Notes: generated from the letters alone by a model not told the origin. Shown: positions 25,681 to 31,617, numbered from the stretch's first letter. The stretch: DNA of 64,000 nucleotides from Caldicellulosiruptor changbaiensis (GCF_003999255.1 NZ_CP034791.1:2334501-2398500), one strand, 5' to 3'. Translations and numbers: made by a program.

Positions 25681-27447
25681 TTATTTCAATTCAAAAATAA
25701 CTTGAGAAAGTTCAGTTTTCAATTTTGTAACTCTTTCTAACACCTTTTGATTATATAGCATTTTCCTTTCCAGCTCACTTTTGCTCTTATTAAAATCTTC
25801 TTTAGAATTTCTCAAAAGCTCGGTTATAATGCCACAAACCTGTGATATTTTGTCTTCCATATCAGTTTTAAAAGCCTCAAAGCTTTCTTCCATTCTTCTT
25901 AGAAAGTCATACCTGATTCTGCCAATGTTTCTGTCAACATCAATTTCAACCCTGTCAAGTACTCTCTTTAAAATAATCTTTTGAGCAAGTTTTTTGGACA
26001 AAAGATAAGTAAAGTATACAGGATCAATCTCTAATGCACCAACTTCATAGCCTATTTTGTAAGTAAATTTGCTTTGTGCCACAAACCTTTGCAAACCTTC
26101 ATAGTATTCTATATCAATAGAAAAGAGCTGTCTTGTTCTGTCTTTGATACTATTTATTACCTCATTTATTTTCTCACAATACCTCGACAAAAGAGCTGAG
26201 TACTTATTTTCAATTTGTTTTTCAAGATCACTTTTTAACAGTTCAAACTCTTCCACAATAGCCTTCTCAAGATATTTTTCGAGCTGCTCTTTTTGTTCAA
26301 TTCTTTTAAGTCTTGCAACTGATGGATAATAATCATTTATCTTTTTAGTTATCTTAACTACAAGTTCCCTCTTTATTTTTTCCATCTCGTCATCAAAACT
26401 TTGTAAAATATCATTCATCTCAATTTTAAATAGCTTATAAATTTCAATCTTGTTTTGATTTACTTTATCCAAAAACTCATTAAATTTCTCAATATTTTCT
26501 TCAAGCTGTTTTAATGGCATAACCTTGAGTTTCATATCACTTTCCAAAAATGTTTTGCAAACTTCTAAAAAGCTATCTAAACTTTTCAGATTACTCAAAA
26601 CTTGCACCTTTTCTTTTTCATCTCTTAAAAATCGTTTTAGTTCCTCTTCAAAAATTTCTATGCCACTTTTTTTGATAACTTCTCTGCTATCCTGCACCTT
26701 GCCTTCAAGTGCCATTTTTGCTGAAATAGGAAAGATATTTACATTTTCTTTCTTTGTAATATCCTTAATTACACTTTTTGTAAAACTTACTATCTCCTCT
26801 AATTCATTTTTATTTGTCAAGTCACATTTATTAATTACAAAGAATATCTTATCTACACTTTCGGCAATCTTAAGTAGAAACTGTCTTTCAACTTCAGTAA
26901 TTGGTGGGTCAACAGACAATACAAATATGACTGCATCTGCCTTGTCTACAAATTCATATGTCACATCTGTGTTGTGTTGATATATAGAACCAATTCCTGG
27001 TGTGTCAACAATTACAACATCCTTATTCAAAAAATCAAACGGATACCCTATCTCAATTGTATCCACACCTTTTTGATTTTTAGGATTCCCTTTTTCTGTG
27101 CAGTAAAGCTCAAGCTCATCAACTGGAATTTCTTTTTTTACACCATTGTTAAAAATTACATCTATTTTAATCTCAGGACTATAATAAATCTTTGTTATAC
27201 TTGATGTCAAAGGAAGAACTCCTGTTGGTAATAAATTTGTCCCAAGCATGTAATTTATTAGCGTAGATTTTCCTCTTTTGAACTGACCCAATATAACAAG
27301 GTAAAATGCATCTTTTTTGATTTTTCCTTCAATATTACTTGCCAATCTCTTGATAGATTCTGAATCAATCTCCTCTGATAGCTTTTTAATTTGGTGGGAA
27401 AAGTTTTTAATATTCTCCTGCATGATATCATACGCTGTGTCCCTCAT
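25681..27447 (-). CDS. Bacterial dynamin-like GTPase
   Basis: A 588-residue large GTPase. G1 is G-Q-F-K-R-G-K-S-T-L (about residue 53-62), G2 lies near L-P-L-T-S-S-I-T, G3 is V-D-T-P-G-I-G and G4 is N-K-C-D-L-T. The C-terminal half is a long helical stalk (many heptad-like Lys/Glu/Leu segments) as in dynamin-like proteins that polymerise on membranes. No membrane helix is present; a helical paddle or tip is the likely lipid contact. AAAGGAGGTGA lies eight bases before the ATG, a very strong site. It is the second gene of a two-gene unit behind the Cys-rich DUF6062-like gene, 39 bases after it, and under the fluoride riboswitch. Relatives remodel, fuse or protect membranes under stress. Confidence 0.9.
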   Translation of the reverse strand: MRDTAYDIMQENIKNFSHQIKKLSEEIDSESIKRLASNIEGKIKKDAFYLVILGQFKRGKSTLINYMLGTNLLPTGVLPLTSSITKIYYSPEIKIDVIFNNGVKKEIPVDELELYCTEKGNPKNQKGVDTIEIGYPFDFLNKDVVIVDTPGIGSIYQHNTDVTYEFVDKADAVIFVLSVDPPITEVERQFLLKIAESVDKIFFVINKCDLTNKNELEEIVSFTKSVIKDITKKENVNIFPISAKMALEGKVQDSREVIKKSGIEIFEEELKRFLRDEKEKVQVLSNLKSLDSFLEVCKTFLESDMKLKVMPLKQLEENIEKFNEFLDKVNQNKIEIYKLFKIEMNDILQSFDDEMEKIKRELVVKITKKINDYYPSVARLKRIEQKEQLEKYLEKAIVEEFELLKSDLEKQIENKYSALLSRYCEKINEVINSIKDRTRQLFSIDIEYYEGLQRFVAQSKFTYKIGYEVGALEIDPVYFTYLLSKKLAQKIILKRVLDRVEIDVDRNIGRIRYDFLRRMEESFEAFKTDMEDKISQVCGIITELLRNSKEDFNKSKSELERKMLYNQKVLERVTKLKTELSQVIFELK

Positions 27448-27486
27448 CGCAAATCACCTCCTTTTGAAATGTCAGCTCAAATGCAC

Positions 27487-28137
27487 TTAATCTTTAGACC
27501 CTGCAACAAACTCAACAGCCATGTGCCATGCTCTTACCTCTTCAGGCGTATAGCTTTCATGAATGTTTCGATAGTCGTTCTTTTCTTTTATCTTCTCAAG
27601 ATGATGCAAGATTACATCAATTTTGTGCTTCACAATCGATAAGAGGTCTTTTTGAATTGACATTGAAGGCATTTTTTCTAAAACTTGCTTTAGGTGTCTT
27701 TGACATATGAAACCTCTTTCTGCAAATGCAGATTTAAACTGAGACTGTGCTGTAAAGTAGTGAGAAAACGCTCTTGTGTAGGTATCTTCAAAGCCTTGTT
27801 CTTTTTCACAAAAGATGCACATATTTTGGTCTTGAGTTTTCCTTTTACGAGGCAATATTTCAATATGGTGGTTGTTTTTAAAACTTCTCAGCAAATCCGA
27901 ATATATAATGGCATGGGCAAGCACATCTCCAAACGACTCTAACTTTCTTGCATGCTCTGGACAGATTCCCCCTTTTCTTATTTTGTCACGTAAGCTGTAA
28001 TCGTTTACTGATTCATACAGAAAGTCATCAAAAAACTTATCCATTGCCTTGTTTTTAAGATGGCATACAATACACTTATCTTCTTTGAAGTTTTCTATCA
28101 TTTCAAAATACACAATATCCAAAGTGCATCCCCCCAA
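27487..28137 (-). CDS. Cys-rich DUF6062-like protein, first gene after the fluoride riboswitch
   Basis: A 216-residue soluble protein with four paired Cys/His motifs: C-I-V-C-H-L-K near residue 23, G-I-C-P-E-H-A near 58, C-I-F-C-E-K near 103 and I-C-Q-R-H-L near 138. These alternate as C-x-x-C and C-x-x-H, suggesting two zinc- or iron-binding units or redox-active thiols. The pattern fits the DUF6062 family as I remember it; no function is known to me. The start is uncertain: GGGGGG overlaps the ATG at 28137, and a TTG at 28122 has better spacing. It lies 36 bases after the riboswitch terminator and before the dynamin-like gene, so both should be expressed only when the terminator is bypassed. 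Confidence 0.75.
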   Translation of the reverse strand: MGGCTLDIVYFEMIENFKEDKCIVCHLKNKAMDKFFDDFLYESVNDYSLRDKIRKGGICPEHARKLESFGDVLAHAIIYSDLLRSFKNNHHIEILPRKRKTQDQNMCIFCEKEQGFEDTYTRAFSHYFTAQSQFKSAFAERGFICQRHLKQVLEKMPSMSIQKDLLSIVKHKIDVILHHLEKIKEKNDYRNIHESYTPEEVRAWHMAVEFVAGSKD

Positions 28138-28172
28138 AGCCTTTAAAAAAGCTTAAAACTCTTTAAAAAAGC

Positions 28173-28209
28173 AAAAAACTCCTGCCCGCATCTTGTACGG
28201 ACAGGAGTT
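28173..28209 (-). terminator. Riboswitch expression-platform terminator
   Basis: On the minus strand AACTCCTG-T-CCG pairs with CGG-G-CAGGAGTT and runs into TTTTTT. The AACTCC of its 5' arm is the same segment the fluoride aptamer needs for its pseudoknot, so ligand binding and termination are mutually exclusive. Confidence 0.9.
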
Positions 28210-28262
28210 ATCAGCCAACCAGGGTATTCCCTGTGGCATTTTAAGGCGAACTCCATCGCCTC
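28202..28262 (-). ncRNA. Fluoride riboswitch aptamer (crcB motif)
   Basis: On the minus strand the conserved 5' element GGCGATGGAGTTCGCC (28260-28245) is followed by TTAAAAT, a GCC-ACAGGG / CCCTGG-GGC stem-loop, and then TGATAACTCCTG. This is the crcB-motif layout, and the GGAGTT / AACTCC pseudoknot complement is present. It closely matches the bacterial fluoride riboswitch sequences I remember (for example from Bacillus cereus crcB). Fluoride binding should stabilise the pseudoknot, block the overlapping terminator and switch the downstream genes on. The genes it controls here are the DUF6062-like protein and the dynamin-like GTPase; no crcB/fluc or CLC-F gene is in the window. Confidence 0.93.
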
Positions 28263-28288
28263 TATATTCACTTTTTCTTTCAGTTTTT

Positions 28289-28317
28289 ATTATATGAAGT
28301 TTTGAAATTTTAGTCAA
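28289..28317 (-). promoter_or_regulatory. Promoter of the fluoride riboswitch operon
   Basis: On the minus strand -35 TTGACT (28312-28317) and -10 TATAAT (28289-28294) have the ideal 17-base spacing. The aptamer starts about 27 bases after the -10. The promoter begins 12 bases after the xylanase stop codon with no terminator between. Confidence 0.85.
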
Positions 28318-28328
28318 TAATTAGTTTT

Positions 28329-30389
28329 TTACTCTTCCGGCACAACTGAGGGGTCAATCAAGCTCCAAAATGCAAACTTTGGCTGATAATCCTTGTCAAA
28401 TAGAAGTGGATAGTCACCTTTTAGCCATGAGTAATCATCTTTCAACCCCCAAAAGGTAACACTTGTAACTACATTTTTGTACTTCTTTAAAACATCAAAA
28501 ATTGCTTTTAATTTTTTGGCCTGTTCAATTAGAAGGTAACGGGTATACGCATCATCATCTTCTGTCATGTTCTTTGCAATACTTATATCAATCTCTGTAA
28601 AATGTATCTCAAGCCCCGGAATCTTGCTAAAAAGCTTTATGGTCTCCTCGATTTCACTTACATCCGGCCAGTCAAGTGAAATATGGCACTGAAGCCCTAC
28701 TCCATGAATTGGCACACCTTTTGCTTTTAGATTTTTAATAAGTTTGTATATAAACTCTCTTTTATATGGATCTTCAGTACTGTAATCATTGTAGAAAAGT
28801 TTTGCATTTGGGTCTGCTTCATGTGCCCAGATAAATGCCTTTTCAATGTACTCTGGCCCTAAGATATTGAACCAGTCGCTTCTTCTATATCCATCTGGCT
28901 GATTCTCATCAATTGCTTCATTTACAACATCCCATGCATAGACCTTTCCCTTATACCTTCCAACAACTGTTTGAATGTGCTTTTTTAACCTGTCTAACAG
29001 TATCTTTTTGTCCTTCTCACTATTTGTCAGTTTTTCACCTGTTTCAGGATTTGTAAAGAACCAGCTTGGAGTTTGCTGATGCCAAACAAGAGTGTGCCCC
29101 CGCAATGAGATATTATTCTTCTTGCAAAAATCTATATATTCATCTGCAATGCTGAAATTAAAACCACCTTCATAAGGTTGAAGGCTTTCTGGTTTCATCT
29201 CGTTTTCTGGTGTTATGCTGTTAAAATGTCTTTTTATGACTTCTACATCAACTGGATTTGTCAAAGCTTTATACGGCACAGCAACTCCAATCTTGAAATA
29301 GTTTTTGTACTTTTCAAAAAGTGATGGCAGATTATAATCTGGTATAGGCTGCCCCCAATTTTCATCTGCGATGGAATAAAGGTCTACATAATAAGATACC
29401 GCAACTGCTGGCTTTACAAAAAAGCTAACATCCTTTGCAGAAAACTTGGTATCAAGATCAAGAGTTGCAAATAGCTCTGTCCACTTTTTAGGTGTGACGT
29501 TCTGTTTTGTCAAAACAATCTCTTTTGTCGACTTTCCATCGTTTATTTTTATCCCTGCTAAGAAGCTAACAGGCTTTGAACTGCCTTGGTAAACAAGCAC
29601 CGAAAAATCATATGTTCCTCCTTTTTGGAGCAATCCTTTTATCGGAAAGAGAATCTTCCCATTTTTACTCTTCTGTGATGGCTGAATCTTTAGACTGTAA
29701 GTACTGCTGTAGGCTTTGTCCTTTGTAAGCGTGAGTTTGCAGTTTTTATCTTCCGGCAAAAAGCCGCCAGTATTTTTGTTCTCAAAATTCTCCTGTTTGA
29801 GAATATAAGCGGTTTCTAAATCCTTTATTGCAAGCAGGTCAATGTAAAAAGAATCGCTTTTGCTTGTTGGCATATTTACAATCAAATTAATTTTCTTAGC
29901 CTTCTTATAATTATAGGCCTGGATTTTTCCACTTACCCTTGTCCATATGTTTGGCAATAATACCTTTTCAGCAACAATAAGTTGGTTTTTACCACTTGAA
30001 TCTAAAATCTCTAAGGTTGCAGAAATTCTTTGAAGCTTTTTTGTAGCTTGCATTGCATAAAAAGAAATTTCATACTCTCTTGAGAAGTCTAAAAACTTTG
30101 TAATATCAACTACAACTCCATCACTTACATTTTTTCTCCCTGATACCAGTACTGAGTAAAGACCTTCTGCACGAGCAGAATTTGTAATCTTTAGAGTTAC
30201 ACTGGAAGGATATTTCACTAATGGAGAGACACTTTTGCCTTCAAAGTTGTACTCAATGCATTTCTTTTTTGAACTTGCCTGTTCTGCAAATGAATAAGTT
30301 ATAAATTTTAAAGGTACAATACTACTTATTACAAACAACAAAGCAAGAATAAAACCTAACTTTTGACTTTTTAACCTTCTAACTACCAT
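28329..30389 (-). CDS. Secreted GH10 endo-beta-1,4-xylanase with two CBM22-like modules
   Basis: A 686-residue extracellular enzyme. Signal peptide at about 1-37, two CBM22-like xylan-binding modules at about 42-195 and 200-345, GH10 catalytic domain from about 355 to the end. Catalytic residues: acid/base Glu491 in W-D-V-V-N-E-A-I-D and nucleophile Glu599 in I-H-F-T-E-I-D-I-S; also the GH10 segments S-I-T-P-E-N-E-M-K and R-G-H-T-L-V-W-H-Q. It cuts internal xylan bonds. Start at 30389 is chosen because AAGGAGTG lies seven bases upstream. It is the last gene of the SBP-permease-permease-ROK-xylanase operon; its stop lies 12 bases before the riboswitch promoter and it has no terminator of its own. 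Confidence 0.95.
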
Positions 30390-30417
30390 ATAAACACTCC
30401 TTTTTAAAGTTCGTTTT

Positions 30418-31617
30418 TTAAACATAATCAGGGAATGAAAGCATATCAGAAATCACCATTGCAACACAACCTAAAACGCAAGCTCTGTCTTTTAGCCTTG
30501 AAACTTCAACCCTCACATGATGGTATTGTGTAATAAATGACCTTTTGAAGACAATTCTCCTCAGTTCTTCTAAAAACAAGTCACCCATAAATGAAGCCTT
30601 ATTACCTATTATAACTATATCTGGGTTAAATATATTGACCAAATTTGCAATACCTATTCCAAGCTTGTTAGCAATATCTTTTATAGCGTGCAATGCAACC
30701 TTGCTTCCCAGTTTTGCAGAATCTATTATGTAACTTGCATCCAATTTATCAACATTCTTTTTGTTTATATACTCATCTTCCCAGCTACTTTCAACCATTT
30801 TTTGAATAAGACTCAAAAGTGCCCTTTCTGAAGCGAAATTCTCTAAGCAGCCCACATTGCCACAACTACATACGTCATCATTAAAATCAATAGTTGTGTG
30901 CCCAACCTCTCCCGCAAATCCTTTTGCACCTCTGTAAATCTCATCGCCAATGACAATACCAGCACCAATTCCTATGCCAACACTCACATATACAAGGTGA
31001 GAAACATCGCCCCAGTCGCCAAACCACTTTTCACCCAAAGCACCTGCGTTTGCTTCATTGTCAATGTAAACTGGTAGATTAAATCTTTCTTCAACCATTG
31101 CTTTCAAAGGCACATCTTTCCATCGGAGATTAGGAGCAATAAGGACTGTGCCTGAGGTTTTTTCAACAATACCTGGGACTCCTATGCCTATGCCCAAAAT
31201 TCCTTTTTGTGTCTGCGGAGCCACTTTTATGGCCTCGCTAATTAATTCAAAAAGAACTTCTAAGATTCTCTCTTGAGTTTCCCCAAGTCTAATATTTGCG
31301 CTCTTTTCCCAAACTATCTCGCCAATAAAGTTTGTTAAAACCAAGTGAATATAGTTTACTCCAAGGTCAATCCCAATTATGAGCCCAACATTTTTATTTA
31401 CCTCAAGTAAAACCGGCCTTCTTCCACCTTTTGAATGACCATAACCTTTTTCTATAACAAACCCTTCTCTTATAAGTTCGTCTGTCAAATTTGAAACAGT
31501 GGCTTTATTTAAATCTACAAGTCTCGAAATCTTTGCTCTTGAGATTGTTTTGTTATCCAATATAGTTTTTAAAACTAACAGTTTATTAATCTGTTTCAGT
31601 AATGTATGATTGCCCAT
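30418..31617 (-). CDS. ROK-family transcriptional repressor, XylR-type
   Basis: A 399-residue regulator. An N-terminal winged helix ([21 protein letters not shown]) precedes a ROK sugar-kinase-like domain with G-I-D-L-G-V-N-Y, the [14 protein letters not shown] segment and the zinc site [11 protein letters not shown]. It is transcribed with a xylo-oligosaccharide-type transporter and xylanase, and a XylR-like operator lies at the operon promoter (34915-34939), so autoregulation by xylose or xylo-oligosaccharides is likely. ATG at 31617 follows AAAAGGA by nine bases. It is probably not a kinase, given the DNA-binding domain. Confidence 0.9.

Follow-up and report, generated by a model that had tools for sequence, protein, structure and literature searches.

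The operon described here is located on the minus strand of a stretch of 64,000 nucleotides from Caldicellulosiruptor changbaiensis (NZ_CP034791.1:2334501-2398500), which is referred to as the window in the following. It comprises a predicted promoter, an aptamer of the fluoride riboswitch class, an intrinsic terminator and two genes, the first encoding a DUF6062 protein and the second a dynamin-like GTPase (DLP). Coordinates of these features and of related elements in other loci are compiled in Table 1.

Table 1. Features of the DUF6062-DLP operon and of related loci. Positions without further prefix are counted within the window.
Feature	Position	Strand	Characteristics
Sigma-70-type promoter, predicted (TTGACT, 17 nt, TATAAT)	28289..28317	-	11/12 consensus matches
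Fluoride riboswitch aptamer (RF01734, crcB motif)	28195..28269	-	cmscan 48.8 bits, GA 34, E 1.8e-10, model 1-64 (full length)
Intrinsic terminator (expression platform), overlapping the 3' pseudoknot strand	28177..28209	-	14 pairs, 7 G-C, T tract
DUF6062 protein, CxxC/CxxH twice	27487..28122	-	PF19538, E 9e-17, 61.7 bits (cut-off 27)
Dynamin-like GTPase (DLP), 588 aa, preceded by AGGAGGTGAT	25681..27447	-	PF00350 Dynamin_N, E 1e-30, 107.4 bits (cut-off 27)
GH10 xylanase with two CBM4/9 modules	28329-30425		
Second DUF6062 paralogue of the window genome	genome 1073031-1073720 (L102)		219 bits
Second RF01734 element of the window genome	genome 2401918		upstream of crcB-crcB
Stalk-only DLP paralogue	L190:9902-10729, L181:3182-4015, L192:6071-7018, L178:9921-10751		each with own fluoride aptamer
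Tandem fluoride aptamers	L019:1501-1560 and neighbour, L021, L029, L082		before antiporter-USP unit
Tandem MutS-domain-V protein pairs	L043, L052, L053, L054, L060, L083		behind fluoride switches
112-aa and zinc-ribbon/HEAT proteins	L222:4623-5362; L013, L051, L225		
~140 aa helical protein (cluster 4)	L131, L136, L152, L170, L173, L181, L183, L190, L194, L199		

Riboswitch, promoter and terminator of the operon

The aptamer reached 54.6 bits when it was rescored with our own covariance model R1. Its pseudoknot is composed of GGAGTT and AACTCC, and the AACTCC strand is at the same time the start of the terminator, lying within its 5' arm (AACTCCTG). Folding of the terminator stretch resulted in a z value of -5.67, and the stretch from aptamer to terminator folds with -48.4 kcal/mol (z -6.15). 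Judged from its sequence, the combination of an aptamer and a terminator sharing the pseudoknot strand is the anatomy of a transcriptional fluoride ON switch, and a transcriptional ON arrangement was stated for crcB RNAs (PMC2864571). From this RNA class we infer that the operon is very likely induced by fluoride.

Most elements had been named in a preliminary description of the locus, comprising a crcB-motif aptamer with pseudoknot, a TTGACT-17-TATAAT promoter, an overlapping intrinsic terminator, a DUF6062-like protein with four Cys/His motifs and a dynamin-like GTPase with a strong ribosome site. The search with RF01734 that was suggested there gave a significant hit, both Pfam assignments lie well above their cut-offs, and the ribosome site AGGAGGTGAT is present before the DLP gene. 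The promoter was likewise found and is well placed, though it is no proof alone, as promoter-like matches in this AT-rich region number 12 versus 11.3 in shuffled sequences and hence are not in excess.

The gene of the GH10 xylanase is located directly upstream. No terminator-like site was detected in the interval between this gene and the riboswitch promoter, so that readthrough into the switch is possible.

The genome contains two RF01734 elements. The second one precedes a crcB-crcB tandem and is located 39 kb from the DLP operon, outside the window. Since the crcB-crcB pair possesses its own fluoride switch, the DUF6062-DLP operon is an addition to the channel and not its replacement, and a loss of the fluoride channel from the genome is ruled out. 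The statement in the preliminary description that the two genes occur “instead of a fluoride channel” therefore applies to this operon, but not to the genome.

Sequence and predicted fold of DUF6062 and DLP

Translation of the DUF6062 gene more likely starts at a TTG (28122), 7 nt after GGGGGG; an in-frame GTG (28113) is the alternative. The PF19538 match spans positions 16-222 of 243. Eight residues, namely C14, C17, C51, H54, C99, C102, C137, and H140, are invariant in 12 sequences of the class, and the same eight Cys/His residues are invariant in a set of nine sequences, eight of them derived from other loci and phyla. This set covers loci from Bacillota, Myxococcota, Caldisericota, Bacteroidota, Atribacterota, and Planctomycetota, all of them near a DLP or behind fluoride switches. 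The predicted model is all-helical (pLDDT 87.5). A comparison of this model with the PDB yielded no fold counterpart (best E 0.7), and a sequence search returned nothing below E 0.01. From the CxxC/CxxH motifs we infer that DUF6062 probably binds metal at two CxxC...CxxH sites and acts as a helical accessory protein; a guarding of metal sites would be compatible with these motifs.

Within PF19538 the window copy represents a divergent, switch-linked branch. The second paralogue of the same genome, which is not associated with a riboswitch, is found in all relatives of the genus. In a sample of Bacillota some switch-linked DUF6062 genes have no DLP nearby and other DUF6062 genes occur without a switch; DUF6062 thus is often part of the fluoride regulon, yet separable. 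The neighbors of the switch-unlinked copies were varied and gave no consistent hint at a function. The link to fluoride provides DUF6062 with its first physiological context.

The DLP carries the GTPase motifs GQFKRGKST, DTPG, and NKCD. None of the key residues in the P-loop, DTPG, and NKxD varies among 50 homologs, so the GTPase should be active. The AlphaFold model (pLDDT 83.7) exhibits a helical neck and trunk, and with Foldseek the closest structures were BDLP (2j69, E 2.6e-20) and IniA (6j72, E 1.8e-18), followed by Cj-DLP, SynDLP, and mitofusins. A profile comparison matched 2j68 with 2.7e-50. Residues 450-473 at the trunk tip are of low confidence or disordered in the model, and we take this tip to be the position at which BDLP bears its lipid-binding paddle. 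Neither a transmembrane stretch nor a strongly hydrophobic stretch was found in the DLP sequence.

With BDLP, IniA, Cj-DLP1/2 (5owv), and DynA the window protein shares the GTPase domain and the long helical neck and trunk; its low-confidence tip lies at the paddle position. It differs from them in that it is only 13-20% identical over aligned columns, consists of a single GTPase unit and belongs to a distinct clade under putative fluoride control. By homology, the DLP represents a distinct BDLP/IniA-type family that is found under predicted fluoride riboswitches across many phyla. In anammox/Planctomycetota genomes the full DLP is accompanied by a stalk-only paralogue of 275-315 aa that lacks a GTPase domain, an arrangement recalling the two-part DLPs of bacteria (PMC6104087).

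Distribution of the operon and linkage of DLP to fluoride switches

Sixty related genomes were surveyed, including 12 other members of the genus and family. All of these 12 contain at least two RF01734 elements, one before crcB-crcB and one before DUF6062 or its remnant. Within the class a DLP is kept in 13 genomes, and in 13/13 it is part of an aptamer-headed operon; most of the genes counted are intact, while one is frameshifted (G007), one is present as remnants (G001) and one is cut by contig ends (G035). The composition of the operon is variable. In G023 and G028 the aptamer is directly followed by the DLP gene without DUF6062, the order in G015, G030, and G035 is aptamer-CPA antiporter-USP-DLP, and in G029 (locus L123) the DLP is also located behind an aptamer, after a MutS-like gene pair. 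G009 carries aptamer-DUF6062-antiporter-USP-DLP, and the longest form, aptamer-DUF6062-Na+/H+ antiporter-USP-DLP-112 aa-zinc ribbon/HEAT, was detected in the sister species G002. Given the longer operons of G009 and G002, the window species carries, as deduced from gene order, a reduced version. A search of its genome with a single query did not detect the antiporter. In several genomes (Table 1) the antiporter-USP unit lies behind two fluoride aptamers in tandem, which are spaced by about 110-130 nt.

Four of the 12 other genus and family genomes (G005, G008, G011, and G012) encode aptamer-DUF6062 without DLP, G004 and G006 retain only fragments of DUF6062, and in G001 and G007 the DLP genes are broken, so that this locus can do without the DLP. 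An obligate DUF6062-dynamin pair is ruled out, since each gene was found alone behind switches. The fluoride-responsive module of DUF6062 and GTPase proposed in the preliminary description is consequently retained as one riboswitch-controlled unit, with a link that is far stronger and wider than foreseen, but not as a fixed pair. A recurrence of the aptamer beside these genes in other genomes, which the description had suggested to look for, was indeed observed.

For the wide survey, six aligned DLP proteins served as the query against genome contigs, a procedure that is blind to RNA. It yielded 80 loci, whose best segments are 28-53% identical, and these loci were then searched with a covariance model for which 18 aptamers from the first survey had been used. 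An aptamer was located at most 300 nt from the DLP start in 57/80 loci; a further 13 have one on the same strand at a distance of up to 3.5 kb. Where the available upstream DNA amounted to 3.5 kb or more, 40/43 loci were aptamer-positive. Among the ten other loci, three have no upstream DNA (L122, L134, and L196) and four have less than 0.8 kb (L124, L160, L197, and L199), the contig of L124 ending within an antiporter-USP-DLP operon; in L131 the aptamer lies 7.8 kb upstream of the DLP. The remaining two, L175 and L200 from Scalindua (genomes G440 and G452), keep a DLP in genomes without any RF01734 element. These two marine anammox genomes differ in this respect from the other anammox genomes sampled.

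The positive loci are labeled as Bacillota, Atribacterota, Thermodesulfobacteriota, Myxococcota, Pseudomonadota, Deferribacterota, Aquificota, Nitrospirota, Calditrichota, Planctomycetota, Caldisericota, Bacteroidota, Gottesmaniibacteriota, and one archaeal bin; many of them are MAGs, for which single labels may be wrong. The link of these predicted DLPs to putative fluoride switches is not a local one; a dozen phyla or more show it. In the majority of phyla the DLP has a switch of its own and is the first gene behind it, with neither an antiporter nor crcB adjoining.

As a control, all Dynamin_N genes and all RF01734 hits were determined in 34 genomes of the wide survey. Proteins with more than 90 bits were regarded as clade-like DLPs, the score standing in for the clade, and an aptamer was counted if it was located on the same strand at most 4 kb upstream. 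By these measures 33/38 clade-like DLPs were preceded by an aptamer versus 0/21 other Dynamin_N entries, a few of which are two matches in one long gene (Fisher p 1.3e-11). The aptamers of the clade-like DLPs are mostly situated about 200 nt before the GTPase domain. In a tree, which was calculated quickly and has long branches and an unsure deep order, the DLP clade falls on one side of a branch with the paralogues outside; the exception is the fragment L221, which itself exceeds 90 bits.

The quality of the RNA elements was assessed with 95 aptamers from DLP loci, whereby the pseudoknot was outside the search model. Nevertheless, 99.8% of its cells were paired, and both sides had changed at 4/6 pairs. 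For P1, P3, and the pseudoknot together 98.8% of cells were paired and changes on both sides occurred at 11/13 pairs. None of 500 shuffles had an equally high share of paired cells, and sliding the partner by one column reduced the share to at most 57%. The alignment columns A14, T15, G16, G19, and A116 are invariant. By this pattern of covariation and conservation the predicted aptamers at DLP loci are genuine fluoride aptamers and not look-alikes.

Candidate role of the DLP in the fluoride response

Based on the anatomy of the switch, the family membership of the DLP and the conserved linkage, we regard it as reasonably probable that the operon is induced by fluoride and that its DLP, a member of a distinct BDLP/IniA-type family, acts at the inner membrane when the cell is stressed by fluoride/HF. 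As long as fluoride is absent, transcripts started at the promoter (about 28290) would end at the terminator. In the presence of fluoride the Mg-F-bound aptamer would hold the pseudoknot and block the 5' arm of the terminator, allowing DUF6062 and DLP to be made. The DLP may then tether, repair or remodel the inner membrane, alongside the exporters, Na+/H+ antiporter, USP, enolase, and pyrophosphatase of the same regulon. An action on membranes is likely from the predicted fold, and membrane protection is the likeliest role compatible with it. Membrane damage recruits bacterial DLPs of this fold, DynA and IniA among them (PMC8844932). HF crosses membranes, and exposure to fluoride alters the expression of membrane-integrity genes, inducing such genes (PMC11139923), which suggests that a need for a DLP could arise. 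Arguments against this reading are that several close relatives lack an intact DLP at the locus, that Scalindua retains the gene in genomes devoid of RF01734, and that the protein has a poorly modeled trunk tip and is free of transmembrane stretches.

The main rival to a membrane role is dose compensation, in which the DLP would be a fluoride-sensitive GTPase and the switch would merely bring it back to its normal amount, a proposal also made for enolase and pyrophosphatase. GDP-AlFx, BeFx or MgFx mimic the transition state of GTPases, enolase and pyrophosphatase as known fluoride targets belong to the same regulon, and the catalytic residues of the DLP are invariant. However, the same chemistry applies to the remaining dynamin-like GTPases in the control genomes, none of which has a switch (0/21), and the absence of the DLP from several close relatives indicates that it is no housekeeping enzyme; we consider this explanation unlikely. 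We rate as quite unlikely that the DLP serves as a membrane scaffold which organizes or recruits an exporter or antiporter, with DUF6062, the 112-aa and the zinc-ribbon/HEAT proteins as adaptors. Such a function would suit the operon of G002 and G003, in which DLP, CPA antiporter, USP, DUF6062, and the 112-aa protein are joined (in G002 also the HEAT protein), as well as the GTPase-less stalk paralogue with its own switch in anammox genomes, but it is at odds with the position of the DLP in most phyla, where it directly follows its own switch and has neither crcB nor an antiporter as a neighbor.

It is very improbable that the DLP belongs to phage defense or to a general envelope-stress response for which fluoride is one cue only. 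DynA confers phage tolerance (PMC8844932) and PADLOC returned weak matches to LeoA (6.2e-23) and LeoBC (4e-16), but the matches are generic to dynamins and cover parts of the protein, and the neighbors are fluoride-response genes and no defense genes. An assignment to LeoA/LeoBC was rejected, the matches being partial and DUF6062 being the sole operon partner. A chance adjacency of the aptamer and unrelated genes has a practically negligible probability and is ruled out by the difference between clade-like and other dynamins within the same genomes and by the recurrence of the link in many phyla.

Beyond the window, we consider it quite probable that the DLP family forms an ancient core component of the fluoride regulon in a dozen or more phyla, that membrane remodeling is a general, so far unrecognized arm of the fluoride response, and that DUF6062, the 112-aa and the zinc-ribbon/HEAT proteins are further, undescribed members. 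In the reviews covered, the fluoride response is presented as export combined with the repair of pH, phosphate, and glycolysis. A switch-bound GTPase of membrane type across phyla points to a further challenge of fluoride to cells, probably at the membrane. To our knowledge, few physiological triggers are established for bacterial dynamins; the DLP operon offers a natural, ligand-defined on-switch for the study of a bacterial dynamin, with one gene to delete for its function.

With the known fluoride riboswitch systems (crcB/Fluc, CLC-F, Na+/H+ antiporter, enolase, and pyrophosphatase) the window shares the aptamer, the pseudoknot and the overlapping terminator. The target is different, as a dynamin-like GTPase and DUF6062 are absent from the gene lists covered, which contain mutS, K+ or Cl- transport and formate hydrogen lyase for crcB RNAs (PMC2864571) and exporters, antiporters, pyrophosphatase, HAD, and enolase for the fluoride response (PMC11139923). 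In the literature covered, no report of a link between fluoride riboswitch and dynamin and no relevant co-mention of crcB and dynamin was found. The link of fluoride switch and DLP is apparently undescribed, although an earlier entry in a table of riboswitch targets, such as that of Baker et al. (2012), may exist.

Antiporter, enolase, pyrophosphatase, and MutS genes of the known regulon also occur in the regulon surveyed here. Thereby tandem pairs of MutS-domain-V proteins were found behind fluoride switches in related families. Furthermore, two undescribed proteins, a helical one of about 112 aa without Pfam match and a zinc-ribbon/HEAT-repeat protein of about 131 aa (PF13646), recur together in fluoride-switch operons, and a family of helical proteins of about 140 aa (cluster 4) adjoins the DLP in such operons in several phyla (Table 1).
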